From: Cenococcum geophilum 1.58 | Lineage: Eukaryota > Ascomycota > Dothideomycetes > Gloniales > Gloniaceae | Direction of reading: 5' to 3' | Length of the DNA stretch: 64,000 nucleotides | Assembly: GCA_001692895.1 (NCBI GenBank) | Contig: KV748235.1 | Coordinates: forward strand, 372,001 to 436,000 | Shown: positions 27,824 through 51,742 of the stretch, one piece after another | How positions within the stretch are numbered: the first letter of the stretch is position 1 | How the letters are laid out: every line of letters starts with the position of its first letter | Program-made: the position numbers and the translations under genes | Notes under the pieces: generated by a model | Seen by the model: the letters and a program-made list of their open reading frames with translations, nothing else | What the model was told of the DNA's origin: nothing | Databases searched by the model: none

Positions 27824-28155
27824 AAAACTCTTAAGAAAACAGAGTATTTAAAGAATTGGCATCAGAGAAGAATTACAAGAGAGATAGGGGATTTTTCTTT
27901 AAGTATTTAGCTATTATATAGCTAGGGGAGAGGTAGATAAGGACCCCATAACACCTTATATGTTCCTATTGCAATATCCGTAATATCCGTAATATCTGCC
28001 AAATTCTGCCAAATCTACTAAATTCTGCTAAATTCTGCTAGAACCGTAGAGTCCTATTCTACCTAGTTGGGGTAGAAAGCTCTGCATGGACGCTTTTATC
28101 CTTATCGATTGCGATATTTTATGCTCGCTTATTTGCATCATCCAAAACCACACTG

Positions 28156-30214
28156 CCCTAGAGAGCAAAGGAGGGGAAAGTTAGACCGAAAGAAAGACCA
28201 GAGGAAGTTGGAAATTTTCCAGGGAGCCTGAATATACCATTTCCGTCAACAAATATGAAGCTTCTCAGCTGTGATGTTCTGGCCGATACGCTCAACCGTG
28301 ACCCTTTCGAGTCATTATTAGCTGTTATTTCATTGAAGATATGACATTGGAGCCTGTTGCTCTCATGCCGCGATTGTGAGGTGGGGCGATCCCCTACTGC
28401 GAGTCACATTTACGATGTAATTGTTCACCAAAAACTAGCAGAGGGGATTCTCTATCCAATGCTCGACACGGGGTGTGATTTGCTGCCGGAGCTGTGATGT
28501 AGTATTAGAAAGATAGTGAAATGTAGCCGATCAGGGAGATGGACTTGAGACATGTAAATAAAACCCAAGGAAAATCCGAGGAAAGGACTCAAATTTGAGC
28601 TCAGCTGCGGGCAGGAAATATTCGCTAGCATGCAGGTTGCCCTGCAGCAGCCATGGCTGGGGCCACCGCAGAGGCTTCATGCCCACATGTCTCCTGAGCG
28701 CACCACTACAAAGCGACAAAGGTTAAGATAGAGGTGGTAAGGCGGCGATTGTTAAGGGGTGTATCATGGGAGAATCGACGACGTATATCTTCGAGGGCTC
28801 CAGAGAATGCATCATACGCGTTCATTCATGATGATAGGTGCACCTTGACAGGAAATGCGATAAGTTTGAGTTATCTAGTAGCTACACATGACTCTATAGA
28901 GCATTAATTGAATTCACACGATGAATTTGAGGCTGAAGAACTTACATTGAATGTGGGTTAATCGTGGTACGCGCTCTTTGCCTCCTCGTTCACCCCAGCC
29001 ATTAAAGACGACCACCGGCAAAAATTCCCAGGAATAAGCAATTACCAGTTGAAATAACCTGTTTAAATTACTTATTGTTAATCCATGAACTACGAGATAT
29101 TTAGAACATCACTAGCTTATAGCGATGTGGTGCAAGAGGAAATGTCGATCGGTAGTCCGTGCACCGATTGTAAGAAAAGAATGATGACTCTGTCTATTGA
29201 ATGTAGCTCTAAGAACCTCTATATATACATAGGAAAGGCGTAGGAAATGAGAACGAGAAGGGGGTAGGGGGGTGGCAATGGAAACAAGGGGTAAGTGACC
29301 GAGTCAATGGGAGGTAGCTGAGTCGGTGATAAGATAACCTGATTCAGGTCGACAGGAAACCTCAAGAAACTCTCATCTCTACCGGACCTCTCTTGAACCA
29401 TCCAGCCACCCTAATTACTCCTCGCCTCGCAGCCTGATACGGGGGACAGAGTTTCATCTCTTAGCAATACTAGTATCTGCATTGGAGGCGAGGCGCATGC
29501 ACAGCATTGCAAAGGAAATCCTTATTGCGCAGCGGTTCCATCCACCAGCAGATTGTTTGAATTAAATGAATCGCATGAAGAGCTAGCACTGATAGGGAAG
29601 CGCATGGATTCATACTGCAAAAGCTAGATTCAGTCCAACATTACAAACGAGCTCCTTTGCGAGGATGGTTTTAATAGCTAACGAGTATCAGATACCCGCC
29701 CGCAGATCAGTTGCAGGAAAAAACTTATCCGCTCATACGCACGACATAAACTATAGAATTCGTAGTGCACTGTATCATCTCGTTATTTATTCATTCGGGA
29801 CTGTAGAAGAGAATTGTGGCTGAGATTATTGGAGAGATAATTTGACTCTCCTGGGTTGGGGATATAATAAGGAACACTCTAGGCACTAATTCGTCGTCTA
29901 TTGTGGGGACAGGCAAACGGCCTGTTACTCTTCAATTGTGGCTCCCTCAGGTGCCGGCACAATAAGAGCTTTTAGGAAAGACTTAGTTCGACAAGGACAG
30001 GAAATGGATAACTGATAAGTGAGGATAATACGATAGAGCTTAATAGAAGCCATTTAGAAGCCCCCACATGGACACCATCCTACGTTATTAAGGTATCGTA
30101 AAAATACTTTACATGCTTTTAAATCTTGAAGTGTTTCTCTTTCTCTTTATTCAGATCTGCTCGCTGTAGTGGCTTTCTTGGCTTGGGCTACACTGTGCCG
30201 GTTCGCTATTCCGT
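28156..30214. other. 2.1-kb intergenic DNA without a supported gene
   Basis: Ordinary composition. The few open frames (for example minus strand 28531-28719 and 29219-29401) are short, lack domains and have no splice-linked partner. Its 3' end must include the hydrolase gene's 3' untranslated region. Confidence 0.5.
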
Positions 30215-31280
30215 TTATATTGCTAGTCCTTTTATGCGCTCTAGCATGTCGCATATCTGCGCGACTACAAAAGCTGGATCATCAGTTTGGATAAAATGGC
30301 CGCAGCCTTTTGCAATGACTGGGCCTTTAGTCAGTTTTGCGGCTGTGATGTGAACGAGGCCCTCATTGTATTTCTGCCAGCACGGATTCATATACAACAT
30401 GGTCAAAATCTTTGGAGTATGCATGGTTCCCTGCATTGAATCAGAACTTCACCCCAGGTGTTGACGGATAACAATAGCTTACCGTGAGGCTTTGCTCCGC
30501 AAAAGTATCCCAGTCATGCCCAACAACGGTGAGAAGTGGCCCCTCACCGGATAGTCCTATTAGCTTAGGGTTATCGGAGTAAGGGAGAAGCCGGGCAAGG
30601 TTCCTCCTGCTCAAGCCTTCCTTATTGGGCACGCTTGGATGGAACGCCTTCGCAAACTTCGCTCTTGTTTCACGGAGATCTTCCGCAGATACTCCTTCTG
30701 GCAAACTGTCAGGGTCGAAGCCTGGGGCATCCGGATCCGGCCAGATAGAAACAAAATCAGAATTTGCCATTATAGAGTCAAGTAGAATCATGCCAGAGAC
30801 AGTCCCAGGATAAATTTGAGCGAAGAGGCGGGCAAGAGCACAGCCTATTGAATTGCAGACAAAAATAAGGGATGGGAATTGATCTGAGGACATATGAAAT
30901 AAGGGTTTCTCCACCGAAAACTGCGATATCAATTGGTGCAAGTCCCGGACAGCACTCATGACATCGTGTCCGTGGCCAGGCTCTTTCCCTTCATTAGAAG
31001 GATCCGGCGACGAATTACCTTGGCCAAAACGGTCATACGAAAGCATTGCTGGGTGCGGCAGGCCGTCTTCCTCTGCCTTCTGAATAATATTTTCCATGAC
31101 CGAGTCCCACCCGGCCCGAGGAACAATGAGCCCATTCAGGAAAACCATTAGGGTCCTGGGGAAGTCTCCTTGGGGAGAAGCAGGAGCGAAGGAGTACCAC
31201 AAGGAAGCACCTGCTTTATCTTTCAACTCTATACAACCCCGTTCAATGTTCATCTGATGCAACTCGTTCATTTCCACCAT
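30215..31280 (-). CDS. Alpha/beta-hydrolase fold protein
   Basis: Two exons (31280-30483 and 30430-30215; intron 52 bp, GTAAGC...TGCAG) give 337 residues. It belongs to the alpha/beta-hydrolase superfamily; the substrate cannot be read from sequence. The nucleophile elbow is 'VCNSIGC' with Ser144. The oxyanion/strand-3 region is 'VFLNGLIVPRAGW' (residues 46-58) and the strand-4 region is 'LSYDRFGQG' (80-88). The acid is probably Asp256 in 'VVGHDWD', and the catalytic His311 lies in 'KGCGHFIQTD', encoded by exon 2. No signal peptide is seen, so it is probably cytosolic. All triad elements are in place, so the gene looks functional. The LTR of a Copia element lies only about 300 bp upstream of the start codon. 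Confidence 0.85.
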
Positions 31281-31587
31281 TTTATGCAGATCCGTAGCAG
31301 GAAGAATGGCTAATGCGATGCGGGTGGTTTTCGGGAAGGATTTAGGATGGTGACTGGACTATTCGATCGGATGGTGTCATCTTTAGTGCTCTAAAGGCGG
31401 TAAACGTTAGCGGCTTAGGATTACGGAAACGCGCGGGACTCTGACAGGCTTACAGTTCGGCTTCTGCTACTACATGTAGGTAGTTGCGGTGTATCTACTT
31501 GACCAGCGGGGTTTGGAAGGTGATCGGAGCACCTTAGCCCAAGCGCAGGTAGGAGATGGATCACTAGAGATGGGAGATGATCAGTGA
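31281..31587. other. Truncated upstream region of the hydrolase gene
   Basis: 307 bp separate the hydrolase start codon from the Copia LTR. Any promoter element farther upstream now lies on the other side of the 9.5-kb insertion. Confidence 0.5.
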
Positions 31588-31832
31588 TGTTGGCCACGGA
31601 GGTAGCTTTACCTATGGGTAATATTGACCTGTGACGACGGCTGTTAGACATTAGTATTAGCCTAATATCGTCTTGTTACACCACCCTCTAGGGACCCCTG
31701 TAGGGGGTTAATTCTATTATGTATATTAGGGCTCTTAGAGCCACCTTAAATAAAATAGATCAATCGTTTAATTCTGTGTCTCTATATTAATTAGCTAGCT
31801 ATATATCATTCGTGATACCTGCCTGGCTAATA
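31588..31832 (+). repeat. Left LTR of Copia element
   Basis: It starts TGTTGGCCACGGAGGTAGC and ends GGCTAATA. It is colinear over 245 bp with 40824-41068. Confidence 0.85.
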
Positions 31833-34800
31833 GTTATAAGCCCGGTAACCTTCTGAGCACTAGGGAGATCTTAGTGGCCAGATAACTACCACTAAGCCTC
31901 TTTAAGCATAGTTCGTCACGAAATATCGCGTGCTTTACGCGTAAGCGCGTCTCTTTACGCAACCTTAAAATAAAAGCTACTATAGCAACTAAGGACTTTA
32001 CAAACCCTCTTTTGCTAACCTAGAAAGACTAGCCTATATAGTTTTAATTTATCCGCCAAGAAGCAAGTTTTGCGAAGATCTGGGACTATATTAACCCAGA
32101 TAAGACGGAGAATGAAATTAAAGAAAATAATAAGCTAGCTATACCTTTGATAGTAGCAGCTCCTATAGCACCTATAGCAGCACCTGCAGATCCTGTAGCA
32201 CTAGCAGCGAATCCTGTAGCTCCTGTAGTACAAGCAGCGGCTCCTGCAGATCTAGTAGCAACTCCAGTATCTACTAAAACAGCTATACCTAGGTTATCGA
32301 GTTAAGGATAATAAACTTAGCAATCTCTAAAGATATAGAGAATGCTCTTTAAGCTCTATAAGCTTTAATAATAGGACTACCTAAAGCGGGAAGAGAAGCT
32401 CTATACGTTTATAGCACTCTTATATACCACCGTAGGCACTAACTTCTTAGGGTATCTTAAAAACCTCACTATACTATATTCGGTTTTAAAACAGCTAAAG
32501 AAGGTAACAAAGCCATCTTAAGCTACGCTATAGTAAATGGTATTAGACGATCTTAAGAAATGGAAATAAAGGCCTAAATACCAGATACTAGAGTTATGGC
32601 TTTAGCTTTATATTACTATTATATAGAATAGTAAAGAGCTAGAGGAAGGGTTAATAGAGGTAATGGAGAGCAGCGTTATATAAGCCTTTATCTAGGACTG
32701 TAAGGAGATCTATCCAGCTCTATATTATACCTTTATTTAAAAGGTAGCAAAGAGGTTAGAGAAGCTTAAAATGGCGATAATAATTAAGGAATTTAACCTC
32801 CTCTATAAGCACCCGAATACTAGATATAATACTTACGCTATACTTTTAGGGCAGCTATCTGTAGATCTAACGACGTCTACTAGCCTAGCACCTTCTTAAT
32901 TATCTAAGATAAAGTGTTCTGCTTATAGTTTACCCTATAAGTTAAGGAATTATAAGTAACTGTTTTAGTCTTTTTAAGGTCCGCACTTTATACCAAATAA
33001 TAAGTATTTAAGGAAGTGTTAAGAATAGCTTAAGGTCCTAATAAACAAGTAGTACTACGATAAAAGACTTAAGTAGATTAAGAAGGAAGGTCCTAGATTA
33101 AGGACGTCTATATTAGCTTCGTCTACTACTAAAAAGGTTAAGGATCTGGATAGGCCCTAAGCTATAGCGGCAGCTATAATAACATCCTTTTTATTATTAA
33201 TATTATCGTAGGATTATCTGGATCTATCTTTAATTAATGCCTAGGGGTATAACACTATAGTAGACACCCACTTCTGTAACGATATTAAATACTTCCGTAA
33301 CTTTAAGCTAAGTATGTCTATAGTAATAGCTGGAGATTTTAGGGCAGAAATTTATAGATATGGTAATATTAATTTAGTAATTAAGGTGGGAAAATAACGC
33401 CTAACTTAGTATCTAATATTAAGGAACGTAGCGTACGCTCCCTATTTTTATACTAATCTAATATCCGTAGTAAAGCTCTATAGGGTTAGAGTAATTATTA
33501 ACTAATTTATAAACTATCTACGCTATAAAGATAACGGAAGCCTATTTGCTAATATTATAGAATATAGAGGTCTCTACCTTATTAATGCTATTGCTACCTT
33601 ACTACCTACTCCTACTGCCTACGCTATATCTACTAAATTCTTTAAGACCTCAGCATATAATAAAGTATGGCATTAACGCTTACTACACTATAATATAGAG
33701 TTAGTGGATTATCTGCCGACTGCGGCAGATAGGGTTAAAGTGGTTAAGATAGATAGAGAAAGAACTCTATATAGTGTACTATTTTATAAACTATATGTTC
33801 TTAGAAAGATAATATAGCAGATATCTTGTAGAATATCCGTAAAGGGAACTTACCCTTTTAAACGTGTTTACTTTAATGTTATTATAAAACAAGATAGGTT
33901 TAATAGAGACACGTATATAGCTTATTTTTAGTATAACTATATAAAGTACTACCGTGCCTTTTCTATTAAGAACTATAAGCAAGAGATACTACTTCTACTC
34001 TTTAAATCAATAATAGCATTTATAAAGAAATTTAATACTTAAGGTATCCGCATTTAGCATATAGATAAGGAGTAAGGTATAGGCGCTAGGGTAAAGAACC
34101 TTATCTAGCTTAACGGAGGTATTATTAAGCAATTAACGCTATATATGCTAGCTTAAAATAGACCTATAGAAAGGTTAGGAAGAGCTATTTTTAAATAAGT
34201 AAGGACTACTGTTATTAAAGTAAAGTTACCTATAAATCTATGGCCCGAGTTTATGCTTTTAGTAGTATTCCTACTTAATTAAACTCCTATTAAGTCCATT
34301 AACTAAAAGACCCTATTTAAGATACTTTATAAATAGAAGCTATAGCTAGTAGGACTTTATATAGCCGGATCTTTAACCTATATGCTTATTAAACATAGCA
34401 TTTCTAGGAAGGTAAAGTTTAAGCCATGAGCCTAAATAGGTTATCTTATTGGTATGGAAGCGTTAAATATCTATAGGATATAGATACTAACTACTAACCG
34501 TATTATCCGATCTCGTGACGTACAAATTAATAAGTTAAAGAGATATTAATCTCCCGAAACACTAGAACACCTTATTATCTTATAGGCTTAAAAGAACTGT
34601 TTTTAGCAAGTCTAAAACCTACTAGATAATCTTTAAGATAGTAGTAAGGACTAGATAGAGAACTTTAATAAAAAACTAGATATAGGACTGCCGTATTTAG
34701 CAAATATTAACGTTACTCCTATATTAAAAAGCATTTAGATCTTAATAGAAGAACTCCGTTAGCTATTTACCCTAAAGCTAACTCTAGAACCGTCTAAACC

Positions 34801-35285
34801 ATTAGCGTCTTTAGCGCCTTAGCAATTACTATCTACCGTGGCATTTACGCTATAGACATTATCTACTACTTAGTTATCTTCTAAAGTCACCAAACCACCG
34901 TTTATAAATCCTATACCTTGTTCCGAACCTTAGACAACAGTAGGCTTATCATTAGGGGGTAAGAGACGTTCTAGCCGTAAAAAGCGGTTTATAGCAAAGA
35001 AGAAAGATATGCTAAATTAGGATCTATAATAATAAGCCTTTGCGGTTTAAATTAATAACGGTAATGATATTATTAGTCCTAATACGACACTATTAGCTTA
35101 CGCTTTCTATACTGCTATTACAAAGACGTACGGATATTAAGACGACTTTCCACCACTACTAAAGTTATGGAAAGAGATGCTTAATTATAAGTACGCTATA
35201 GAGTTCAAAGCAGCTGCTTATACTAAGATAAGGGCCTTAACTGGAAAGCAGACTTGGGACGAAGTACGACTAATTAAGAAGGTCC

Positions 35286-38200
35286 TGTTCCGACTGATAC
35301 CGGTATATATAATATTCTAGAACATTTCTGCCTTATTCTGGAATAAGTCGTCCTTGTTCTAAAATGAGTTATATATCGCTTTAATCGACCTCATTCCGGA
35401 CTACTTGTCTCATTCCGGAAAAGATCTTTAAAGGTTAGGCCAATTGCTAGGTGGTATAGTAGGTAGAGGCTCGCCAAGGCCTATACGCATACTATAAGTC
35501 GTAAAGCTCTTTAAAATATATACATTTTATACTTTTATTTTTCTTTATATCCAGATTTAATTGGTAAATAGTTATCGCATAGGTTCTAGAATAACCTCAA
35601 ATTACGCTAACTATGCCTATATAATGTCGCCAAAAGATCCACTTAATAAGTGTATATTTGGTGGTTGAATAATATTTTGTAATTAAGTATAAGGCATTTT
35701 GCAGAGCTCTCGTGAGCTCCTTTATAGTATTGATTTTGCTTAAAAATCGCCCAATTAGGCTTAGCTTAGGGGCTATCGCGAACTTTAAAAATTTTTTATT
35801 TATTCTTCCTTACCTACCGCCTCTATATACGACTTAATTAGATCCTTAATAATATGTACGCCTTTTCTATAAGTTCTAAATATATATTTAACTCTACTGC
35901 TAGCTTAAATCTAATACTAGTAACAGCAATGTCGTCCGCGCCTACCTCTACGCCTACCTTTACGCTTATAGCTCCCTTACCTCTTACTAATACTCCTATA
36001 AATGAAGACTATAACGCTAGCTAAGCAGTCGTTTCCTTCTTAGTTATAGTAAAGCCTGCCTTTACTAAGTATCTAAAAGAAACTTAGAACGTCTCTATAA
36101 AGCGCGTCACTTAGGAAAAATATAACGATATTATTTCCTAGCTTACTAATCCGGGTTATAAAGCTCTCTTATAGGCCGAACACAACGCTAAATTAAAGGC
36201 TAAGAGCTGCTAGTTTATATAGGAATAAGGCGAAGAGTATATACGCGGCCTCTAGAGGCGGCCAATTCGCTTATCTAACCGTAGCTTAAAGGTTGTTCCT
36301 AAGCTAGAAATATATAATACCATTATTTAGTACTATAGGGAGCTTTACTATATAGGGCAGAAGAAGATATATAGTATACTTACGGCCAATTAATATGGTA
36401 TACGGCTAGTGGAAGTTATTTAGCTTTTAGAACACTGCCAGGTATATATTAAGTAAGTTTAACTTTTTATAAAATTGTTAGTTATACATAACACTAATAT
36501 TTTCGTAGGAGCGCTCCTAACGCTATACGGCCACCGCTTAATGCAATTATCTCTAGGGCTCCTTTTAATCGTATTTAGGGCGATCTTATTAATATACGCA
36601 ATGAGGCCGACGGCGAATATAAATGGATCCTACAGATACGCGATTACTTTAGTAAATACTGCGCCCTCTACCCCCTTAAGCAGAAGACCGCTAAGTAAGT
36701 TACCGCAGCTGTGCTCTAATAGATACATTATTATATTTACCCGCGTATTTAGTAGAGTAATAACGGCTTAGAATTTAAAGGCGCCCTTCTTATACTACTT
36801 CGGCGTTATGGAATTAAGGTAATTAATAGCCGGCTATAACACCTTTAGTTATAAGGCCTTATAGAGCAAGCCAATGGTTATATAAAGAAGAAGCTTTATA
36901 CAGTAAAGCGACTCTTAGGAACTTTGCGATAGGTAGCGGCTTGCCCAATTATCGTAGCCTTAATTAATCGCACCTACTATAAATTAATTAGCTGTATACC
37001 TTTCTACTGCCTCTATAGGAGAGATCCTTAGCTATTTACTTTAGTGGCGCTTAGCCACTAGGCTACTATAGAGCCTCTATTAGAAGTTACTAACACCTCT
37101 AAAGCTAAGGAGGAAGAGGATCTTAATAGTAATAAGGAAGTTCTTGGCCCTCTACTAGATAAGAACGGTAATAGGTAATAGGCAGCTAAGTAAGAGCGTA
37201 AGGATAATAAATATTTTAATAAGGAACTAAATGGTAGCTAGAGCTTGGTTACAGCCAAATATAAAAATAAGGAGAATAAGGATTAATTAGAAGATAAGGA
37301 GAATAATAGTTAATTAGAAGATAAGGAGAATGAGGGTTAATTAGAAGATAAGGAGAATAAGGGTTAATTAGAAGATAATATACAGAGGCCAAGGACTCCT
37401 TTAAACCCTACTTTATCTAATAATAATCAGACCTTTAAAGGCTGCTCACTAATCTTAAGTTAATATCGCGAGATTACGGAGGCTATGCAGTCGTTAGGAT
37501 TAAGTGGATTTAGGTAGCCTCCGCCTCTACTAAAAGGCTTTCCTATACTAAGCTAAGACGTCTAGATACAATTAATAAGAGAAGAGTTTACTAAATTAAA
37601 TAGATAGATTATAGCCAACGCCGCTACTAGAGCTCTATAGCAAGCTAAGTTTAATATTAATATTGAAAGAAGGCAGCGATCTATCTATTAGCAGGAGGAG
37701 TTATATCTAGACGACTAGATTAAAGATCTGGAAGATACTTTTTATACACTAAGAGGCTCCTTTATAGATGATTTTGCCATAAGGGTTAAAGATTTACGCG
37801 TATAGCTCTACCGCGCAGCTAGTGGAGTAGGCCTACCACCTATAGATTTTAATAAGTACTATAACGTCGCTATACTTTCTTACCGGCGTAAGTTAATTCT
37901 GGCGTTAAAGGACTCTAACTACCCTATTTACTCTATACTACTATAGCAAGAGCTTATATAGCAGGTGCGTAAGAGACTTAAGAAATATTAGAAGGAACTA
38001 CGATTGTAATAGCTATAGATTCCCTTATAACATTCAGATTCCTCTACTTATGATTTATTAAATTTATATAAGAGAGTTCGATAATAAGCTACTCACTCCC
38101 GTAAATAAATAAAGAAGAAGTATAGTAGGCAATACCACGTTACTGAATTTAATATAGGTAACGTCGTCCTTTTTAGAATTCCTAAAAAGCTTTAACGTAG

Positions 38201-39292
38201 TACTGAAGTCTCCCGTATACCCGGCCGTATATATAAGATTTAAAATTACGGCTACTTTAAGGTTTGTACTTAGTACGGAATTATTAAGGAGCTCTTCCTA
38301 GGTAATAAGCTTGTTAAGCCGCTAGAGACCTATAATGCTCGCCTTAATATAAGTGTTAGTACAATCCTGCCGCTCTCTGCAGTAGTTAAAGCCCATTTAA
38401 TAACTGCGCGGCCTACCTACTATAGGTATAGGCGAGGATATAGCAATTAACAGTGTAGCTGTTGAAAAGGAAATATAGAATGTTCTTCCTACTGCTATAG
38501 AGGGGGGCCTTATATAAATTAACTAACGGAGGACTCCCTAGGCAAGCCTCTAGTAAGAGCTTATAGAAGGCTTACTAGTACTTAAATTAACTCTTAAATA
38601 AAGTAAGCCTAATGGGGGACTCTGCCATAAAGTTTAATATAGCCTTAATTAATAATAGTAGATAAGGAAGGTAATTAATTAAGCCAGGAGAACGGGGGCA
38701 GTAAGGTTGGCGCAGCTAGGAGAGGTTTACGTTGCGGACACGCCAAACCTAATTAGGTAATTAGACTACGACCAGCAGAACCTTAAAAAGCCCGGTTTTT
38801 AATAGATCTTAGTAAGATTAAAGCTTTGCATAATTTATAAATTTTGGTATTAGGGAACGCGATTAACTACCCCCTGCCTAATTAGCTTCTACCACTTATA
38901 GCCTATATCTATAATGCGGAAATGCCTTTAAATATACTTATTAAGCGTAGCGTAACCTACTTTAGATAGAATCTGATAGTGTTATGGTGGTTAAGGGGGG
39001 GTGGTAAAATTTAATCTCTAGAGCAATAGAAAATCTTATTAGAAAATTAAAATTATATATTTTTATACTAGATATCGCGACTACGCTCTACCAAATCTAT
39101 ATATTTATTGAGAAGTTAAAAAAAGCTCTATTAAATCTTAATATAGCTTTAAATCTTTTCTGGAATGAGATAAGTAGTCCAGAATAAGGTTGATTAAAGC
39201 GATATATAACTCATTCTGGAACAAGGACGACTTATTCCAGAATGAGGCAGAAATGTTCCAGAATATCGTATATACTGGTATTAGTTGGAACA
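35286..39292 (+). mobile_element. Ginger-like DNA transposon with retrovirus-type integrase, decayed
   Basis: Inverted repeats of about 145 bp (35286-35430 and 39148-39292; tips TGTTCC...GGAACA) and a perfect 5-bp duplication GGTCC (35281-35285, 39293-39297) bound 4007 bp. The plus strand carries an integrase-like protein. A zinc-finger-like stretch is near 36330-36450. A DDE core near 36600-37020 shows 'RDYFSKYCALYPL', 'NGLEFKGA' and 'ALINRTYY'. A C-terminal beta-barrel-like stretch 'FNIGNVVLFRIPKK' is near 38140. A Cys-rich tail is near 38450-38520. No LTR, reverse transcriptase or capsid gene is visible, so it is not a retroelement. Ginger and Tdd elements have this plan. A 27-bp tandem repeat sits between core and C-terminus. 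The copy is RIP-decayed with many breaks. Confidence 0.7.
37267..37374 (+). repeat. 27-bp tandem repeat, four units
   Basis: Units begin at 37267, 37294, 37321 and 37348, each like ATAAGGAGAATAAGG followed by TTAATTAGAAG. The period is nine codons and encodes an acidic/basic Lys-Glu-Asn pattern. It lies inside the Ginger-like element's coding region. Confidence 0.85.
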
Positions 39293-40823
39293 GGTCCATC
39301 GACTTCCTACTATGTAGGTCTTTACGTACAAGGAAGATTCGGACGGCTTTATTACGAGATTTAAAGCTCGTCTAGTCGTCCGCGGAGACCTTTAAGCAGT
39401 CTTATAAGAGGAGGTTAAAGCTATAACGGCAGCCTATCGAACCTTCCGTCTACTTTGCGCTCTTACCGCTAGCTTCGACCTTGACGTCATATAAGTTGAC
39501 GCCGTCAATGCATTTGTCAATGCCTTAGTTGACGATAAGGTCTACCTCGTTCCCCCTAAGGGTATAGACCTACCGCCTAGATTCTCTTTCTATCTAAGAA
39601 AGGCAATGTATAGACTACGGAAATCTCCTAAATTGTGGTTTTTAGAAATGTCTGCTGCTTTGCGGAGTATAGGTTTAAAAGCTATACTGGATAAGCTATG
39701 TCTCTATATACACCCTACCGAACCTATCTTTATATTTTTCTATATTAACGATATCCTAATTATAGGACACCCGAGCTATTAATAGTAGATAGAGGATATC
39801 CTAAAGCAGCTATAAGATCGATTTGAGATCTGCTAAATACCTTAGTTCACGTTATTCCTAAATACTTGTGTTATGCGAGATTGATAAAAGGGAAAGCTCT
39901 GGCTCTGTTTAGATTAATATCTTAAGAAGCTAGTCTTAATATACTATCTAGAATATCTAAAGCCATTAGCTATACCACTATTGGGCTAGAAATTAACGCC
40001 GTATAAGGGAGAAGCTACGCCGAATTAGATGAAAGGATATTAACGTTATATAGGTTCTGCAATATATCTAGCATCTACTATATAACTAGACGTTGCTTTC
40101 TTAGTTAGTAGGCTAGCTGAGTTTTTATAAAATCCGTCGCTAGCTTATTTTGCGAAGATTAATAGATTACTTACCTATCTCTATAATACCAGATACCTCG
40201 CTCTTAAGTTCTCTACTATTACGCTATATAAGATAAACTAGGTTCTAAAAGCTGCTTCTAATGCTAGCTTTACTAATAATGCTCTAATACGTTAGAGCTT
40301 ATAGGGCTTCTTAATAAGCTTATTTAATAGGCCTATAGTATAGTAGGCAACTAGATAAAAGGTAGTTACTAAGTCTACTATAAAGGCAGAACTCCTAGCT
40401 CTCTTATACGTTAGTAGGGAGGTTAAGTATATAGTTTAGATCTTTAAAGCTATTAGATTCGATCCCAAATAGGACGTTATTATTAATTATAATAATTAGT
40501 AGTTAGTACGGATTGTGATAAAAGAGACCCCTATAGTATCTACAAAACTCCGATATATAGATATCTATTAATTCTGGCTTTGCCAAGAAGTTTAAAACGG
40601 AAGCTTTATTATATAATAGGTACTAATAAGCGAGATAGTTGTAAATAGACTAACTAAAGCTCTATTAAAGCAAAATTATTAAAAATTTATCGACATGGTA
40701 GGGCTCCGCGATATTAGATATCTAGTTAATTAACGCTTAGTAAAGCTTACTACTAGCTTGTCTATTACGACTACCTAATTTGGTAATCTAGCTCTGCCGC
40801 TCTACGCTAGATCTAAGGGGGTG

Positions 40824-42820: not shown

Positions 42821-45052
42821 CTATCCAGTGCACCTTTCCCACGGGTCAATATATGGCAAGCCCATTCCCTCAAAGACTTTTCGCTCTGCCTCCTCCGCTG
42901 TTCCAGTTACCCCCACCGGCCCTTCAAGCTCCACTACTTGCCCCGTGCTCCTGTCTCTAACCCCACTACTATCAAACTTCCACCCCTTGACATGCTTCGC
43001 GTAGCGCCGTAAATCTCGCTGAAAGGTTGTACCGCCACTCCACCCAGCGACGGCGCAGCCAACTGTACGCCAAGGTGAGACAATAATATCCACCCTACGG
43101 TGAATGTTCGGATTCTTTGCTTTCGAATTAGCTGCCAAATCCGCCTCTCGAGTGGGCCAGTGCAGGTCCTGCCAAACCACAAGCGCCTTGTCAAGCGTGT
43201 CGAAACCATAGCTTGCATGACCAGAAGACCGGAAGGGCAGAGTAGCTTGGCCACGGTGGGTACCGTGAAGGCTCAGTAGCAGCGTGTGCGTGATCCAACC
43301 CTCGTCTTCGAGTGACGCGACTACGTCGGTGACGAGGTTACCGGTTTGTGGGAGGGAAGGATGCGACAGGATAATGTCGACATCTCCCGAGGCACTTTTG
43401 CCGCGGCGGTAGCCGCCGACTATTGTAACAGAGATGTTTGAGTCACGGACACGAATTGCGTGGGTGTGGATGATAGAGGCTATGGACTCGACTTCAGAAC
43501 GGGGAATTTTTTCTAGAAACTCGGCGCAGTATTTTACTCCAATCTGTTGAACTCGTGAAAGGGTGGACCAGCCATGTTCAACAATGTCGTCAAGGTCCCG
43601 CCAATGATTTGAAAAGTAAAACTCGCGCGCTGTGGAGGCGCCGACGCCCCAGATGTCGTAGAATAGGCGAAGAACTTTCATTACCTCGTCATTTTCGGCA
43701 TCCTCAGCTACTTTAATAGTGCCAGTATTCTTCCATTCGATCCAAAGGTTTGCGATCTTCACGTCACACCCAGGAAGCCAAAGGATCTCACGCGGATTAG
43801 TGATGAGATAAGGGTATGCTGCCAATGCTGCAATGCTAGTTGAGTAAGCTCGCACGCCAATCTCATCGTCCATAAGGAGGCGTGCTTTTCTGATTTTCTT
43901 CAGTTGTTCGATGAAAGGGTCGTTGGGTGGATCGGCAGGCGTTGAACGTTGACAAGCATACTTTAAGCTAGCCTTGACCCAATCCGGGGGCTCTGGGATG
44001 TCGCTGCCTTCACTTTCGTAGTCACTTGCCGTCTGCTGCAATAGATTCGCCACTTGAGACGAGGAATGCCCTTGTTTCTGGCTCTGGGATGCGAACGTTC
44101 TGTTATCAAAACGACGCGGCCCATGACCGGTTGATTTGTAAGGCCGCTGACCTGATTTTCGGGCAGGAGCTACCAAGTGATCTGCTTTAGCTCTTTCTAG
44201 AATACTTTGAGCCGGTTGTGGTCGTTCCACCACGACTTTTCGAGAAGATGATATGATTTTATGTGTTGATTGTGAAGCTAGTGATGCGGTTGGAAGCTGA
44301 GAAGTGACAACAGTAGCTGTTCGATCGACAGGCCTTCCTTTGTATACAACGTATTCCCCTAAAGGAAGAAATTTCCCAGCTTCATTAGAATCGTCGAGCC
44401 AGTCAAGCTTGACGACCTTGATAGCATCCACGAAATTCTCTCCTTCGAAAGGAACACTTGGCAATTTGGGGTTTTGGTCGAGATCAGGGACTAGGATTGG
44501 CGAAATATGCCTTATTTTATTATTAACAGACAGCCCAAAGGAATTATCTTCAGTCTCTGCCTTAGTCGTAGACTCTTCGTTGCGTAGTTTAAGAGTCTTG
44601 CTGCGTGATGCAGATGTAGTCTCGACGAGTCGCTTCTTGTGGGCTGGCTCAAGGTCTTCATTTACCTGTGGGTGTGACACCAGCGATGAATATACAAGCT
44701 CTTCTGTCCAAACACGATGACTTCGAAGTTCGAATGCTGCTCTACGTTTCGTCCCAACTTTCCCAATGAAGAGTTTTGCTTCAGATGCGTCGAATGTCAG
44801 AGGGGCGTTTTGCTCCATCAACCGTTCCTCTACATCGTGTAGCTCATCTCCCTTGAAATGAGCCGGTAAAACAAATACTGGTGGTAAGACACTTAGATCA
44901 AGGGAACCGGAAGGTATCCCTTCCGGAGGCGGCGAACTACCCATAAGGGTCTGAGATGAGGGGGGACTGCTGGAACACATGATTGCCAATGTCCCACGGT
45001 GATGGGTAACAGCACTGGCGGGAAGCAAGGGAAAGCGTGTGGTGGTATCCAA
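42821..45052 (-). CDS. pol4: Family-X DNA polymerase (Pol4 / Pol mu-lambda type)
   Basis: A nuclear gap-filling polymerase expected to act in end joining and base-excision repair. It is an uninterrupted frame of 743 residues. The N-terminal part (about 55-125, 'PVFVLPAHFKGDE...VWTEELV') looks like a BRCT module. A Ser/Lys-rich linker follows. Residues about 370-500 match the 8-kDa/fingers helix-hairpin-helix parts ('YDIWGVGASTAREFY'). The palm has 'GGYRRGKSASGDVDIIL' with metal-binding Asp557 and Asp559, and the third Asp655 in 'RRVDIIVSPW'. Next comes 'AGWSGGTTFQRDLRRYA' (Gly670-Trp671), a Gly-Trp pair like that of Pol mu and TdT rather than the Tyr-Phe of Pol beta/lambda. All three catalytic Asp are present. 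The start may be Met25 instead of Met1. It is convergent with the coiled-coil gene. Confidence 0.9.
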   Translation of the reverse strand: MDTTTRFPLLPASAVTHHRGTLAIMCSSSPPSSQTLMGSSPPPEGIPSGSLDLSVLPPVFVLPAHFKGDELHDVEERLMEQNAPLTFDASEAKLFIGKVGTKRRAAFELRSHRVWTEELVYSSLVSHPQVNEDLEPAHKKRLVETTSASRSKTLKLRNEESTTKAETEDNSFGLSVNNKIRHISPILVPDLDQNPKLPSVPFEGENFVDAIKVVKLDWLDDSNEAGKFLPLGEYVVYKGRPVDRTATVVTSQLPTASLASQSTHKIISSSRKVVVERPQPAQSILERAKADHLVAPARKSGQRPYKSTGHGPRRFDNRTFASQSQKQGHSSSQVANLLQQTASDYESEGSDIPEPPDWVKASLKYACQRSTPADPPNDPFIEQLKKIRKARLLMDDEIGVRAYSTSIAALAAYPYLITNPREILWLPGCDVKIANLWIEWKNTGTIKVAEDAENDEVMKVLRLFYDIWGVGASTAREFYFSNHWRDLDDIVEHGWSTLSRVQQIGVKYCAEFLEKIPRSEVESIASIIHTHAIRVRDSNISVTIVGGYRRGKSASGDVDIILSHPSLPQTGNLVTDVVASLEDEGWITHTLLLSLHGTHRGQATLPFRSSGHASYGFDTLDKALVVWQDLHWPTREADLAANSKAKNPNIHRRVDIIVSPWRTVGCAVAGWSGGTTFQRDLRRYAKHVKGWKFDSSGVRDRSTGQVVELEGPVGVTGTAEEAERKVFEGMGLPYIDPWERCTG

Positions 45053-46282
45053 AAAGCGACACTTTCAAGCTGAGAGGTCCATAATTCTTACAATAAGTAA
45101 CATGATAGCTGTTCATCGTAACTAAAAATAGGAAAAACTGCGCGGAGAATCACAATTAAAAAGAAAGATGTTGAGTAGGGTATTAAGCTGAGGAGAGTAT
45201 AGGATGTGGTTGCGGTCATCAATACGAGCTCAGCGTAATGTCTTGGCATGCTTAGTCAAATAACACGAATCTCATGACAGCTTTGGACTCTTGATGATAG
45301 CTCAAGGATAGTTTCCAATGGACACACGTATGATTTAACCCTGTATTCTCCTCTTGAACTCTTACACAATCATATCTAAGATGCTTCTTGCCTGGCAGAG
45401 CCTTAACAGATCACGCTCATTTTATTTGTACCTTTAAGTTCCACCCAGTTCTCAACTACTTATCCATAATGGTGTCTTTCCATATTATCAGCACTCATGT
45501 TATAAAGGCGTTGCACAGTGGTAACGAGAGCTTAAGGATAAGCTCTAGCAGATACTTCGGAAGGCAAGGCCAAACAAGGTACGTTTGCATTTCGAGTAAA
45601 CAATAATTTGTACTACTTTCGTCCCCTATCGAGCTTAAANCATGCGACTTTTTGTCTGCGACTGTCATTTGATTTGTATACGAGAAATGGCGGCTTCTTC
45701 CATTGTACTCAGCTTGCACGTTCTCCCTTGCATTTCCTAATTCTTCCCAACCTCCTTACGCGCAACGCGTCAAGCGAACCTAGAAAGGGGGATTTCTGAG
45801 AACAAGGTGCTTGGAAATAGGCAAAAAAAAGCAGATGATCGATAGTTCTATCCCTTTCTGATCAGTTAACTCCATTAGCTTTAGGGCCTAGAGGGCTAAA
45901 TGCACGGGAAACGTGACCTCGCCGGGCGCCACTTATCTTTCCTTACTGCCAATTCCTTATTTAACACGCTTTGGTGTTATTTCTCCAAGATGATGGCTAA
46001 GATAGAAAATATAAGGGAGGCCGACTCGCCATATTATTTTGTCGAATAGCTGCGGAGTCTCTTCTAAAATAAAGTTGCTGGTTCCTTTATCCAGACTGGA
46101 CAATTCTCTCGTTCCCCCCTTCCATTTCTCCTTATGGTGTTTGAATCTCTTAAGAAGATTCTAAAATCCACCGAAGGTATTCTTAAAAGCCTCAGACACC
46201 ATCGCACGCGTCCACTGTCTCAGGTAGAATTTTTAACCCTATAAGACAGCTACGTGCTCTTCTCCGACATCGCTGCATAGAA
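45053..46282. other. 1.2-kb intergenic region
   Basis: The region lies between the divergently transcribed polymerase gene and the small secreted-protein gene. It has one ambiguous base (N at 45640). Open frames across 45388-45800 are short, overlap on both strands and show no domain; I do not call them. Confidence 0.5.
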
Positions 46283-46903
46283 ATGGGCTGCTCTAGTGCT
46301 TATATCATCTTGTTTGTTGTTCTTTTTACTTTCCTGGTTGATGTAGCTGCTGCTCCTATTTCACCTTCAGCGGCGGACACAGAGCGTATTGCAGAACGAA
46401 TGAGAGCCGAAGGGCTATCCGAAGTGCGATATCCCTTTCTTTACTTTGAAATATTCAAGTTGCCGTAAATGACTTCTGAGCCCCTTGTGTCTCTAGCGCT
46501 TTAAAGGACGGAACTGCCGCTTCCTTGCACAACTGTTACAACAAACACTAAACAAATCTAGCGCGACATAACAAACCGCCTCACTTCCGGTATTCCCTCT
46601 TCAGATCAACCATCCTCTCTTCTCTCCACCGCCGTCAAGGCCCAAGCCTTTCTGATCCCACCTATTTACCGCCACTCCCAGCAAGAGAAACGCGACACCT
46701 CGGGGGACATCCCTCCAGGGTCGCTCGAGGCACCCGAACTGCTTCCGCGATCGCCTGCACCAGATACGACAATCGACGCTATTGAGGAAATCATCAACTC
46801 GGTTCTCAGTCGCTCTAGGAGTGCTGAGCGTCGGCAGTTAGCGTATGAAGGGATGGAAGGGGCTGTGAGAAGGCCACAGGGGAGTCGGTATTGGGGCGGT
46901 TAA
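46283..46903 (+). CDS. Putative small secreted protein, about 160 aa
   Basis: Exon 1 (46283-46423) starts with a clear signal peptide: 'SSAYIILFVVLFTFLVDVAAA' with likely cleavage after AAA near residue 23. The proposed exon 2 (46562-46903) continues the frame to TAA. The intron (46424-46561, 138 bp) has a GTGCGA donor, which is weak, and an ACTAAAC branch-like site before CTAG. The mature part is Pro/Ser-rich, with a dibasic 'QEKRDT' site that Kex2 could cut, and a C-terminal helix ('IDAIEEIINSVLSRSRSAERR'). It has no Cys, unlike typical effectors. The exon pairing is inferred; without splicing, exon 1 would end at TAA 46466-46468 after 61 residues. The family is unknown. Confidence 0.5.
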
Positions 46904-47218
46904 CTGCTTTCGGCTTCGAGTCGAAATGAGATGGGTAGATATTATATTCACAGATTAGGAGCATTCATTAGATTGCCAGAACAACAATCAACCTAAAGTC
47001 GCTTTGGATACAATAGAATTCCCTTGATTAGGATAGTTATCATGCGCCTTCAGACTTTCCCCGGCTTAGCCTAATCTCAAACGCCCGCTTTGTCCCCTTC
47101 CCTCACTGGTTCCCCAGCGAGATAGAACGCCTAACGCCAAATCGCAAGGACGATACAAAATAGCAAGTGGCAGTCTCTTGCAGCAAACTGCATGTTATGA
47201 ATATGAACAAGCCAAATA
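46904..47218. other. Convergent spacer
   Basis: 315 bp between the secreted-protein gene and the stop codon of atg3. No supported feature. Confidence 0.5.
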
Positions 47219-48469
47219 TTAAACGCCCATCGTAAAATCGTGCTCGATGCCAGGCGTAACGCTATTAACATGAGCAAATTAGTCTCGACTCCTCGCTTTT
47301 TAGTTTTAGTGGATAGCAAAACATACCTTGCTATGAACTTCAGGAATACTACTAGATACTGGTCGACCCTGATGGCGACTTCTTCCTCTTCGGGGCCATC
47401 CTCAAGCACCTCCCACTCGTCCGCTGTCCTGTCCTTGCCGCTCTCTTCTCGCTCTTGCTGCTCTGCCCGCTCCGTTAACTTGAGCAGCTTCGTATCATCT
47501 ACTAGTCCTTCCATTCCACTATCCACCTTTCCGATGTCCTTCCCCGCTTTCAGTTTAGCTAGACGTAGTTTGAGTGCAGCGTCGGCACGATCAAGCAGAA
47601 TTTTCATGACGGAAGCGTGCTTGCAAGGGTGCACGGAGGCCGTCTTGATGGAATGGTCGAAGAAAGGGAAGTCTTCGATTGTAACGGTCTTGTCTTTGTA
47701 GTCGCCGACAATGTCTTCCATCATTGCTTGTGGCTTAAGAGGTTCTGACGATGACCCATATCCGGAGAGGTATAGACGGGGTGTGCGGTAGTGGGCAGAG
47801 TAGGTTATGTAGAGCGTGTATGTTCGGAGGGGTCTGGATAGATATTTAGCGTATAGAGCAGAAATAGTATGAGACCGTAAGCTCGGCATGAGGCCAGGGT
47901 AGATGTTCGTGTCAACAGTGGGGAGAAAAGACTTGAACATACGCTGAGGTGCTAGTACCAGCTTTAGGGTCCCTAATAATGGCCTCCTCATCATCCTCCT
48001 CGTCTTCCATATCAGGGATCTCCTCTTCCTCTGCTCCGGCATCTCCAAGATTTCCGCTCTCATCTACAGTCCGGACATCTCGCACTCTTGCCTCCTGGCT
48101 AGCTGCCATGCCCCCGGTCCTTAGCCAGCCATCGTCTTCTGGCTCACCCTCGCCCGCAGCGAAGCCGTCCCGTACGAGCGTCTCATCCTGGCCGGCGTCG
48201 CCAGCAAAGTTCTCATCGAGCCTTCGATGGCAGGGCACACCTCGTGTGACGAGGAACTGCTTTCCCTCAGGCAGATATGGTACGCGTTTCGATGGACTTG
48301 AAGCGTCGGCCCAAGACCATGAGGGGAACTTGAAAACGAGGAAGTCGCCCGCAAGGACAAACTCTTCGGGCGTAATCTGCCCAGTGTTTCGGAAGGTCGA
48401 TGTGTGTGATATTTGGGCGGTACGTTCACGAAATGTGTCGATATAGGAACGTACGAAGTTATAGGCCAT
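47219..48469 (-). CDS. atg3: Autophagy E2-like enzyme Atg3
   Basis: Atg3 transfers Atg8 to phosphatidylethanolamine during autophagosome formation in the cytosol. Three exons (48469-47943, 47833-47327, 47261-47219) give 358 residues, normal for fungi. The N-terminus has the family signature '[20 protein letters not shown]' and 'PSWSWADA', with '[16 protein letters not shown]'. An acidic flexible region (about 140-170) follows. The E2 core has '[20 protein letters not shown]', '[15 protein letters not shown]' and the catalytic '[10 protein letters not shown]' with Cys246. The last exon encodes '[14 protein letters not shown]', the conserved C-terminus, and this fixes the final intron (GTATGT...TAATAG, 65 bp). 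The first intron (109 bp) also has a GTATGT donor and joins codons to '[10 protein letters not shown]'. The gene is intact. Confidence 0.95.
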
Positions 48470-48821
48470 TTCAAAAACTTGTTGTAAGGTGGACGGTAGA
48501 GAATGGTTGTGATGATGAGAGGAGGGGGAGGGGCGGTGGGGGTTTCAAAGCTGCCTGTATCTAGTGAGAGTAGGGCTCGGAAGAATAATTATTCCGATGA
48601 TTTCAGGGTCCGCTGTCCGGCTATTGAGGTCATCTGCGATGGCGTCGTGGGCCACGAGGATATTCAGGAACAAGCTGGAAGTTGGTGTGATGATGTCTTA
48701 AGACAGCCCTGTTACCTTGTGAGAACACGATCATACATCAAGCCCAGCGTCTGACTCAGACCTTCTCATACATTTTGTTGACTTTCAAGACCATAGACGC
48801 TGCCTGGGTACCTAAGAAACG
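48470..48821. promoter_or_regulatory. Shared divergent upstream region of atg3 and the dioxygenase gene
   Basis: 352 bp separate the two start codons, so both promoters must lie here or overlap. A purine-rich run (about 48515-48545) is visible. No specific regulator site is recognised. Confidence 0.5.
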
Positions 48822-50142
48822 ATGGACGGCGAGATGCAAAGTGGAGAATCATCTTCGCTCCCTATACTCGATTTATCCTATGCAGACAATTCTTCTAAAC
48901 GTCCTGCTCTACTTGAAGAGCTTCACAATGCTCTTTTCAACGTCGGATTTCTCTACATTAAAGACCACGGCGTATCGATGGAAACAATTATGAATCTTGT
49001 TTCAAGGCTTCCAGCTTTATTCAACCAAGGAAATAGTGCCAAAGCTCGTCTTTCAAAATTAAACTCTCCACATTTCTTAGGCTACAGCGGTTTTGCTGAA
49101 GAAATGACGCTTGGAGAGAAAGACCTTCGTGAGCAATTTGATCTTGCCACTGAGCTTCCGGTAATATGGCAAGACCCCACAAATCACAAGAAAATTGGTG
49201 GACCAGGAGATAGAGATTTCACAAAGCTCTATTGGCGTCTCCGCGGCCCTAATCAATGGCCGTGCGAAGACCATGTCCCAGGCTTTAGGAAAGCATATCT
49301 AGAGTTAGCTTTTACTTACCCGCTAACCTGCAACCGGCCACTGATACCTTGAAGATACCATGACGCCCTCCAAGCGCTCTCATATCGCTTCGTACATCTT
49401 GTTGAAGAGGCATTCAGCATTCCAATCGGAACATTCGACGATTTCTTCCTACCGCGTTCTTGTAACATGAAGACTAAAAGTCATCCATATATGCCGCCAC
49501 AGCATCGTATTAAGCTAGTAAAATATCCACCTAGTACAGGCAGCTTTCGGGGTCAAGGCGTTGGTGCCCACAAGGACTCGAGTGGCTGGCTTACCTTTTT
49601 ATACCAAGCAGGCCAGGAAGAGGGTTTGGAGGTTGTAAACGCCAGCGGAGAATGGATACCAGCACCTCCTATTGAAGGTACCTTTGTTGTGAATTTTGGA
49701 AATGCTTTTGAAGCTGCGACAGATGGAGCGGTGAAGGCCACTGTTCACCGTGTAAAGGTATATTAACCAAACTGATTCCTCACAACTTGGCAGCTACTGG
49801 CTGGGCATATGTATTATGATAGATTTGTGTCATTTTTGCAAAGTAAAATACTAATCTACGTAGGCACCTCTATCATCGTCAAAACCTAGATACTCTATTC
49901 CTTTCTTCCAAGGACTTCCACTCGATCTCACCGTCTCAGAAATCCGGCGTTATATTCCGGAATCTGTTCGTAGACTACGGCGAGAGAGCGAGGGGTCGGA
50001 CAGTTATAGTAATATTTCTACATTTCTTGACCCCAGGTGGGATAGCCTTGGAGAGTCCCAGCTCCGGAAGTGGATTCGAAGCCATGAGGATGTAGGACGG
50101 AAGTGGTACGGCGACGAAGTCGTATCATTTTATCTGCAATAG
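48822..50142 (+). CDS. 2-oxoglutarate/Fe(II)-dependent dioxygenase (isopenicillin-N-synthase-like)
   Basis: A non-haem iron oxygenase of the DIOX_N/2OG-FeII_Oxy family; the substrate is unknown. Three exons (48822-49303, 49355-49757, 49864-50142) give 387 residues. The N-terminal part has 'LPILDLSYAD' and 'NVGFLYIKDHGVSMETI'. The jelly-roll core has the iron ligands His233 and Asp235 ('GAHKDSSGWLTFLYQ') and His292 ('ATVHRVK'), and the 2-oxoglutarate Arg304 in 'RYSIPFFQ' (R-x-S). Intron 1 (51 bp, GTTAGC donor, GCTAAC branch) and intron 2 (106 bp, GTATAT donor, ACTAATC branch) restore frame and motifs. The codon after intron 1 completes 'YLEYHDALQALSYRF', typical of the family. All ligand residues are present. 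Its solo position gives no pathway. Confidence 0.9.
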
Positions 50143-50934
50143 AATCTTTTGGACTACTCTGCGTTAATTTATCATATCAGTCACGCCTCGCATAAAACTT
50201 AGACTAGTATAGCTTTTTAAATTTATGAATGGCTCCGGCTCCTGCGGAATTTTGAGAGAGGTTTGCTGGAGAGCTGCTAGTTGAACTGTAGATAATACGG
50301 CCAATTATAGATAGGCATTAACTTTAGAAATATTGACTGGGCAAAGTCCTCAGAGTTGGGCTGCGAATGTTGACTGGATTTCAATAATTACTTGAAGTAA
50401 TCTTGGAGACCGTCAGATATACCAAACAACTGGGCGCTCCAAAATTAAAACCTTCTGGTAATTTATAGCTCTTCCTTCCCCCTGTGAAAGACCTGGTATA
50501 AAATACGATGTATCTAGATGAACACATGGGAATTCAGCTCTCCATAATTGACAAGTTCACTAGCCACTCCTGGGGCTCAAAAATCCTGCCATCTGTCCTT
50601 TACACTTCGAAGATGTGGCCTATTAATTTATCTACTGCGATTATGACATCTGCTTTGCTAGTACGCTTTTAGGTAGTTTGATTTAGTCCGGGCCACCTTT
50701 ATGCCCCAGTAATTAATCTGGAACTCGGGGACGGATATGCGAAGAGCTTGAAGACAGAAAGCATAAGATATGATAGTCATGTATTTATTAGAGTTTATTA
50801 GGTATACAAATGAAGAGCCCACGTCCGGTACGAACAGCTTTGCTTGGATCTCAATTCTCAGCTTTTATATTGTCGCATTTCATCAATTGATCTTCACCTT
50901 TCCGTAATCAATTGGAACTTCAAAAAGAATTACA
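50143..50934. other. Intergenic region, 0.8 kb
   Basis: It contains the 3' region of the dioxygenase gene and the promoter of the secreted-protein gene at 50935. No supported coding feature or repeat. Confidence 0.5.
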
Positions 50935-51726
50935 ATGAAGCTTTCAACCCTCCTAACGCCTGCTATACTGACTGCAGCCGTCTTAGCCTCCTCCGAATCA
51001 GAGTCTGACTCCAGCTCCAGCACCGCATCATCTGCTTCTGAAGAAACCCCCCAGTTGCATCGCCGTACGCGCAGCTATGGTCCCCCAAATCGCCCACAGC
51101 TTACGATAACCTCCGCAAATCGACCACAATCCTCAATGCAGAGCTCTACACACTTGACGAGATGTGTCCTGCTCCTAAAGACTGGGCACCGGAACTAAAG
51201 GTCTTCTACCACCGGTAAGAATACCCTGGATCATGGGAAGGAGTTGGTGATTACAGTAATGAGCGAACGTTGATTAAGGTGGAGAAAGCAGATTTGCCGG
51301 CTGCAGTAAGGGAATGGGTCAAGAACAACGAGAAGCAGAAGCATTTCAGTGTACTTGATGATGTGGTGTTTTTCGCACCAGGTGCCATGTATCCAATTCT
51401 GCCGTTATGGGTTGAAGAGCCTGAGGATGAGGCAAGCTTGGGAGATTGCGAAGGTATGAATCTCGAGGGTATCGAATTACTAACAAGTACTGATTGCTGC
51501 GGCAGGAGTGTTTACGGATCTCGAAAACTACGTTCGTGAGCCGACAGATGAAGGTGTGACTGCCAGCCTAAAACATAAGTCTACAGGCAAAAATAAAATT
51601 GAGATGCAGATCGAGGCGCAGCAGCTGCGTTTGAAGAAAGATACTAGGAGGCGGGACAAATTACGAGTATGGAAGAAGCATCTCTGGATTTCGGCGGGGT
51701 CCTTCTCTAGGGTTTCTCTGTTGTAG
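50935..51726 (+). CDS. Putative secreted protein of unknown family, frame uncertain
   Basis: It starts with a signal peptide ('LSTLLTPAILTAAVLASS') followed by a Ser/Glu-rich stretch. The later parts read well: 'AYDNLRKSTTILNAELYTLD', 'CPAPKDWAPELKVFYHR', 'KHFSVLDDVVFFAPGAMYPI' and 'GVFTDLENYVREPTDEG'. Two introns are well formed: 51215-51256 (GTAAGA...TACAG, 42 bp) and 51454-51505 (GTATGA, ACTAAC, GGCAG). The signal-peptide exon and the next block (from about 51095) are in different frames. Only a 35-bp GT...AG interval (about 51067-51101) would reconcile them, which is shorter than normal. So either there is an unusually small intron, or a frameshift and the gene is dying. The C-terminal part is Lys/Arg-rich. 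I do not recognise the family. Confidence 0.5.
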
Positions 51727-51742
51727 AGATGGCTTGATAAAT

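Follow-up and report, generated by a model that had tools for sequence, protein, structure and literature searches.

A RIP-like-mutated transposon, very probably of the Ginger2/TDD type, in the fungus Cenococcum geophilum

We analyzed a 64,000-nucleotide stretch of the Cenococcum geophilum 1.58 genome (contig KV748235.1, positions 372,001 to 436,000 of the forward strand; hereafter, the window). Positions 35286-39292 of the window form a discrete element of 4007 bp, with its edges exactly where an initial annotation, made from the letters of the sequence, had placed them. The ends, the target site duplication (TSD), and the integrase core confirm that the element is real. It is very probably a copy, killed by mutations like those of repeat-induced point mutation (RIP), of a once autonomous cut-and-paste DNA transposon of the Ginger2/TDD type. 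Ginger elements are cut-and-paste relatives of the integrases of long terminal repeat (LTR) retrotransposons and retroviruses. The initial annotation had proposed a Ginger-like element with a retroviral-type integrase; our results support that interpretation and refine the subgroup to Ginger2/TDD rather than Ginger1. (Statements from cited papers refer to the portions of their text that were available to us.)

Ends, target site, and host

The element's ends and the surrounding sequence are as follows (window positions):
33501-35285, + strand: Copia copy, left part (interrupted); extent judged by eye from the translation, last 300 bp tested
35281-35285, no strand: left TSD, GGTCC, exact
35286-35433, + strand: 5' terminal inverted repeat (TIR), 148 bp, tip TGTTCC (BLAST and inverted-repeat scan)
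39147-39292, − strand: 3' TIR, tip GGAACA (BLAST and inverted-repeat scan)
39293-39297, no strand: right TSD, GGTCC, exact
39298-39800, + strand: Copia copy, right part (interrupted), with RVT_2 reverse transcriptase (Pfam); the Copia copy runs on beyond

The element's own arms were delimited with BLAST. An inverted-repeat scan of the whole window paired 35278-35425 with 39153-39300, which are arms of 148 nt that are 89% complementary and are the longest of the 23 inverted pairs in the window (the runner-up is 36 nt). The annotated repeats of about 145 bp, the TG...CA tips, and the perfect 5-bp duplication were thus all found.

The element was also said to be nested in a Copia copy, and it is inserted in a Copia reverse-transcriptase gene. 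The right flank encodes a Copia-type reverse transcriptase (RVT_2, Pfam E = 1e-20), and joining the two flanks with a single GGTCC gives one continuous reading frame. The joined flanks (600 bp) match, over nearly their whole length, 40 of 40 genomic places among the matches listed, and the three Copia copies that we aligned are all gapless across the insertion junction. These uninterrupted copies therefore represent the empty site.

Copies and derivatives in the genome

We searched the genome assembly (177.19 Mb in 162 contigs; these searches score the best candidates only) and found further copies with the same TIRs. TSDs were counted in the 28 copies with both ends. Loci with one or no recognized end (L009, L016, L019-L024, L026, L027, L038, L041, and L046/L047) stand outside this count, as do several further places with matching tips. 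Exact TSDs were present in 23 of the 28 copies: 16 are of 5 bp and 7 are of 4 bp. As a control, 600 mismatched pairs of flanks from 25 copies gave only 4 five-bp and 7 four-bp matches. The ends are not a chance pairing: they recur elsewhere in the assembly, mostly with exact TSDs. The proposed cut-and-paste anatomy holds. The 4-bp TSDs are not simply mutated 5-bp ones, as the 5-bp register, which we checked in six of the seven cases, has 2 to 5 mismatches. The element in the window and a copy at C11:389357-401647 are separate copies with the identical GGTCC duplication.

The main family comprises 12 full-length copies, including that in the window, with lengths of 3979-4285 bp. They are 85-92% identical, and two of them are listed as two overlapping pieces at 83-88%. 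Interrupted copies are also present, along with a subfamily at about 70% identity.

Smaller derivatives also occur. A non-autonomous set (11 copies with both ends and 1 with one end) has a common internal deletion, so that element positions 1-713 are followed by 3122-4007 (L031 has 1-674 instead). The TSDs are exact in 9 of the 11 (7 five-bp and 2 four-bp), and those of the other two, L035 (C26:248160-249844) and L036 (C26:88554-90238), match across the pair rather than within each copy (GCTAG with GCTAG and AGAA with AGAA). These two copies are oppositely oriented, as would fit if recombination between them had inverted about 158 kb, or if the assembly is misjoined there. There is also a rearranged derivative of 2717 bp, and two loci resemble miniature inverted-repeat transposable elements in that only their ends are common with the element (L077, C85:374131-374679, 549 bp; and L078, C110:152887-153875, 989 bp, with the 4-bp duplication AGTC).

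The transposase gene

The gene can be read through by taking TAA and TAG as Gln, which gives these features (window positions, all on the + strand):
35929-36452: exon 1, putative, from the ATG through the N-terminal domain and H2C2 finger; splice sites predicted
36304-36452: H2C2 zinc-finger region, several His/Cys read as Tyr (alignment to relatives)
36453-36508: putative GT-AG intron, 56 bp (sequence and change of reading frame)
36509-38519: exon 2, with the DDE core, linker, barrel, and Cys-rich tail; true end uncertain
36552-37028: DDE integrase core, which retains the first Asp and the Glu and has Asn for the second catalytic Asp at codon 36759
37080-38087: long linker, with a repetitive acidic part and a helical stretch
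38088-38348: C-terminal SH3-like barrel, without a GPY/F motif
38409-38519: Cys-rich (CXC-type) tail, with Tyr in place of several Cys

There are 12 in-frame TAA or TAG codons in 35929-36453 and 42 more in exon 2 up to 38447, plus a TGA in the tail. The integrase core of the initial annotation is present, but its frame is full of stops and the second catalytic Asp is read as Asn. (This Asp is kept in 6 of the 24 copies in this genome that are readable there.) In the read-through translation, Pfam's rve domain is found at E = 4e-7 (30.6 bits, slightly below the cut-off of 32.6), and a foamy-virus integrase is matched at E = 3e-5. Among integrase, reverse transcriptase, RNase H, capsid, and similar domains, Pfam reported only the integrase, which agrees with the annotated absence of reverse transcriptase and capsid. 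Pfam did not detect the finger in the mutated window copy; in the alignment, its His and Cys residues are still read in some copies. The zinc finger, the barrel, and the tail were assigned by alignment to relatives with uninterrupted frames, and in this way the zinc-finger-like stretch, the core, and the barrel-like piece of the initial annotation all find a place in the read-through gene. Among the proteins that we collected, we found no relative of the linker, its helical stretch included. Within the linker's acidic part, a LEDKEN-like unit forms a short tandem repeat at 37286-37379, and extra BLAST matches there suggest that the number of units differs between copies.

Structural models were built for the read-through translation and for P0003, a relative with an uninterrupted frame. 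The window model is good in the core and barrel and poor in the linker, with a mean predicted local distance difference test score (pLDDT) of 68; for P0003 the mean is 81. The best structural matches of the P0003 model are chains of the prototype foamy virus (PFV) intasome, in order over residues 34-514. The overall root-mean-square deviation is about 24 Å because domain placement differs; rows that mainly cover the core are at about 2-3 Å.

Mutation and decay

The copies that we examined are dead. Summed over pairs of the 12 full-length copies, there are 25818 transitions and 1768 transversions, and among the 13537 C/T differences, the next base is A for 6794 and G for 3979. This mutation pattern is that of RIP. 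Residues of the finger and the tail switch between His or Cys and Tyr from copy to copy, as RIP predicts. When the genome was searched with P0003, 61 stretches were among the best candidates scored, and apart from one fragment of 52 residues they all have in-frame stops. In the copy loci that we fetched, no frame from stop to stop is longer than 231 amino acids (L026; this frame may lie outside the element). Around the element, positions 1-40000 of the window are mostly AT-rich and have a RIP-like signature (the exceptions are the blocks 20001-24000 and 28001-32000), while 44001-64000 is about 47-49% GC and lacks that signature.

Relatives and classification

Relatives were gathered stepwise, from the window read-through to P0003 and then to a rotifer protein, P0118. 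The read-through found only two relatives. One of them, P0003, is 44% identical in the core (over 168 residues) and 26% identical in the barrel (over 73 residues). P0003 in turn found 146 proteins (Metarhizium, Pseudogymnoascus, Scytalidium, Oidiodendron, and Lasallia are among the matches listed), and P0118 found 207 (the matches listed include bdelloids, Rhizophagus, Lichtheimia, and KRBA2-like proteins of Branchiostoma, Haliotis, and Littorina). The nine relatives that score best, out of 45, are 42-48% identical in the core (150-171 residues aligned); three of these nine are from named fungi. A scan of viral_contigs found no relative, and a scan of prokaryotes gave 12 weak bacterial matches (26-42% identity over short pieces of the core).

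We built a tree from 45 of the 231 collected relatives, 13 of the 14 integrase loci of this genome (L054 was left out), and 13 rows for the element. The element's rows group as a single clade (support 100), nested in a set of 38 rows (support 97) that includes the named fungi. This clade lies outside the genome's 8 Gypsy integrases and 5 other integrases, where the Gypsy and Copia labels are our own, based on motifs and tree position and unchecked in Pfam. (We dropped a guessed "Copia2" label for L056 and L059 and treat them as unassigned integrases because both carry GP[YF].) Two integrase matches, at C134:10204-10500 and C77:756452-756748, lie inside open frames of 1396 and 1054 amino acids, while most of the others listed have stops; these two are possibly recently active Gypsy elements.

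Several features point to the Ginger2/TDD type. The element has an H2C2 finger with a DDE core, its TIRs of 148 bp are within the reported length of about 50-300 bp, and 23 of the 28 both-ended copies have a TSD of 4 or 5 bp, as reported for Ginger2 (PMC10045372). Neither GPY/F nor YPYY was found in the window protein or in any of the 57 aligned relatives, so we assign the element to Ginger2/TDD rather than to Ginger1. (Across all 231 collected relatives, GP[YF] is in the last 40% of just four.) The core clusters with KRBA2-like proteins of Littorina and Branchiostoma, which are genera in which Bao et al. (PMC2836005) list Ginger2, so that it may also cluster with Ginger2 proteins themselves.

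The most obvious alternative is that the element is the remnant of a Gypsy (Ty3-type) LTR retrotransposon, with its integrase between two inverted pieces of LTR. Gypsy integrases have the same order of H2C2 finger, DDE core, and barrel, and the element's TG...CA ends would fit; such an origin was discussed for Ginger1 by Bao et al. (PMC2836005). In the approximately unbiased (AU) test, from whose tree 4 rows were left out, constraining the element and Gypsy to one branch was of borderline significance (P = 0.057). However, 28 copies are delimited by these ends and 23 of them have exact TSDs, and none of the both-ended copies that we examined extends beyond the TIRs into an LTR or a reverse transcriptase. 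Of the domains of a Gypsy element, Pfam found only the integrase. The core does not fall among the Gypsy integrases that we sampled from this genome, as the best of these scores 33 bits against it while 45 of 45 Ginger2-type proteins score 61-144 bits, and the GP[YF] motif that is present in 7 of the 9 loci taken as Gypsy is absent. We consider a Gypsy remnant very unlikely.

A second possibility is an element of the Ginger1 type. TIRs of 148 bp and one intron are within the ranges given for Ginger1 (PMC2836005). This seems equally improbable because none of the TSDs is CCGG or CCGT/ACGG (most are of 5 bp, and one target has CCGT beside the TSD), because of the missing motifs described above, and because Pfam found no OTU or Ulp1 domain in the window protein and the 24 Pfam families that were listed in the 57 relatives include neither. 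Third, the element could be a short fragment of a Polinton/Maverick or another integrase-bearing virus-like element, given that Polinton and Ginger2 integrases have neighboring positions in a published tree (PMC2836005), but we give this hardly any credence: the 12 full-length copies are just 3979-4285 bp long with one recognized gene, the TSDs are of 4-5 bp rather than 6, an H2C2 finger, which Polintons lack, is present, Pfam found no polymerase in the gene that was read, and the scan of viral_contigs was empty.

Some observations weigh against the Ginger2/TDD assignment. First, its link to Ginger2 comes from motifs and KRBA2-like names, as the tree is without published Ginger1 or Ginger2 sequences, and it should be taken as probable. 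The trees come from fast searches that had no bootstrapping and gave long-branch warnings, two animal KRBA2-like rows (P0227 and P0229) branch off separately by the Gypsy fork, and the AU test did not formally reject the constrained tree. Second, the tip is TGTTC, of which TGT fits the TGTNR pattern of Ginger2 while the fifth base is C instead of a purine, and none of 22 targets matches RTATAY. For this reason we call the element a variant of the Ginger2 type and not a typical member. Third, an exact TSD is wanting in 5 of the 28 both-ended copies. Finally, we found no intact copy, and it is from the dead ones that we infer the family's past activity.

The Cys-rich tail

The initial annotation suggested that a fungal family with such long TIRs and a Cys-rich tail may be new. 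The length of the TIRs is no novelty, as 148 bp falls inside the published range of 40-297 bp, and the tail also occurs in relatives from animals and Rhizophagus. In the 57 aligned relatives, the catalytic D/D/E, the H2C2 residues, and nine residues of the tail either do not vary or reach a conservation of 90% or more. The tail pattern is matched by 102 of 233 collected proteins (this counts in two translations of the window), and many of the others are partial sequences. Given this conservation across relatives, the tail is a domain of the whole group and not a fungal innovation. It weakly resembles CXC zinc clusters: with 25 tails, Pfam reported preSET_CXC for 10 (best E = 1.4e-4; for the first tail, 1 bit below its cut-off) and TCR for 5, with E values of up to 0.1. 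A profile search of the PDB with the tail gave no match. The tail is about as conserved across the group as the catalytic site is, and the available portions of Bao et al. (PMC2836005) do not mention it.

Candidate binding sites in the TIRs

The motif TTCYRGAA recurs in both TIRs:
35315-35420, + strand, 5' TIR: element positions 30, 51, and 128 (the site at 72 is altered in the window copy)
3' TIR: element positions 3873, 3929, 3950, and 3971

The window element has 8 occurrences, as compared to 0.33 expected and a maximum of 3 in 1000 first-order simulations. Across 24 copies, the motif is present at position 30 in 22, at 51 in 19, at 72 in 21, and at 128 in 23, and it is also found at the mirror positions of the opposite end. 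A degenerate version is visible by eye near position 107. The first three sites are spaced 21 bp apart, which is two helical turns, and this suggests that they are binding sites on one face of the DNA.

A proposed model for transposition

We propose that the ancestral element encoded one spliced transposase with the layout of a foamy-virus integrase (N-terminal domain, H2C2 finger, DDE core, and SH3-like barrel) followed by a CXC-type tail. The transposase would bind the TTCYRGAA sites of both 148-bp TIRs, perhaps with the tail, and then pair the ends. It would free the ends of the element at CA-3' and join them to target DNA with a stagger of 4 or 5 bp, with repair making the duplication. It probably also mobilized the deletion derivatives in trans.

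A bolder proposal is that fungi, bdelloids, molluscs, lancelets, and Rhizophagus share a distinct lineage in which an integrase core and a barrel without GPY/F are combined with a conserved CXC zinc tail that reads TTCYRGAA sites at 21-bp spacing. We consider this unlikely on present evidence. If it were true, then the tail would let an integrase recognize and excise its own ends, which is a step that is wanting in retroviral integrases, and the fungal branch would be a separate subgroup with a relaxed target stagger of 4 or 5 bp.

According to Bao et al. in 2010 (PMC2836005), it was unknown how Ginger1 excises. The C. geophilum genome offers many defined ends, a non-autonomous series, and a candidate array of binding sites, and other fungi have relatives with intact frames. 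With these and the conserved tail, it can be tested how an integrase-type enzyme recognizes and excises its ends.

Comparison with known systems

This kind of family is already known from other fungi and from animals, and it is little described in fungi. Bao et al. (PMC2836005) reported one fungal vestige, a protein in Malassezia. Other reports include a DNA/Ginger-2 label in Metarhizium brunneum (PMC11457142), a Ginger-1 label in Hortaea (PMC7601665), one Ginger element in Umbelopsidales (PMC7928374), and 54 bp of Ginger in Cryptococcus (PMC5484541). In the portions of the literature available to us, we found no fungal Ginger family described with its ends, duplications, and derivatives, although an entry in Repbase or Dfam may exist.

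The nearest described system is Ginger2/TDD (TDD-4 and TDD-5; PMC2836005), which shares the H2C2 and DDE gene, the absence of GPY/F and YPYY, long TIRs, TG...CA ends, and a 4- or 5-bp TSD. The window element differs in its tip and target, as described above (the RTATAY preference was described from Nematostella copies, PMC2836005), in having both TSD lengths in one family, in the TTCYRGAA sites 21 bp apart (unchecked in the others), in its long linker, and in its fungal host. Ginger1 (the ancestors of GIN1 and GIN2, and Imagin) also has an integrase-type transposase, long TIRs, and TG...CA ends, but it has 4-bp TSDs of CCGG or CCGT, GPY/F, YPYY, and OTU or Ulp1 (PMC2836005).

The proteins of Metarhizium, Pseudogymnoascus, Scytalidium, Oidiodendron, and Lasallia are the closest named set. 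Several have the H2C2 finger, DDE core, barrel, and tail in one open frame, with 42-45% identity in the core (for the three best-scoring named rows), but they do not share the linker, and they are known here from proteins alone. Animal KRBA2-like proteins, which are likewise known here from proteins alone, have a homologous core that is about 31-40% identical to the window copy, and the complete ones have the barrel and the CXC-type tail. Finally, the PFV integrase appears from the structural models to share the order and folds of the N-terminal, H2C2, core, and C-terminal domains. As the enzyme of a retrovirus it integrates cDNA, and its match to this family ends before the CXC tail.

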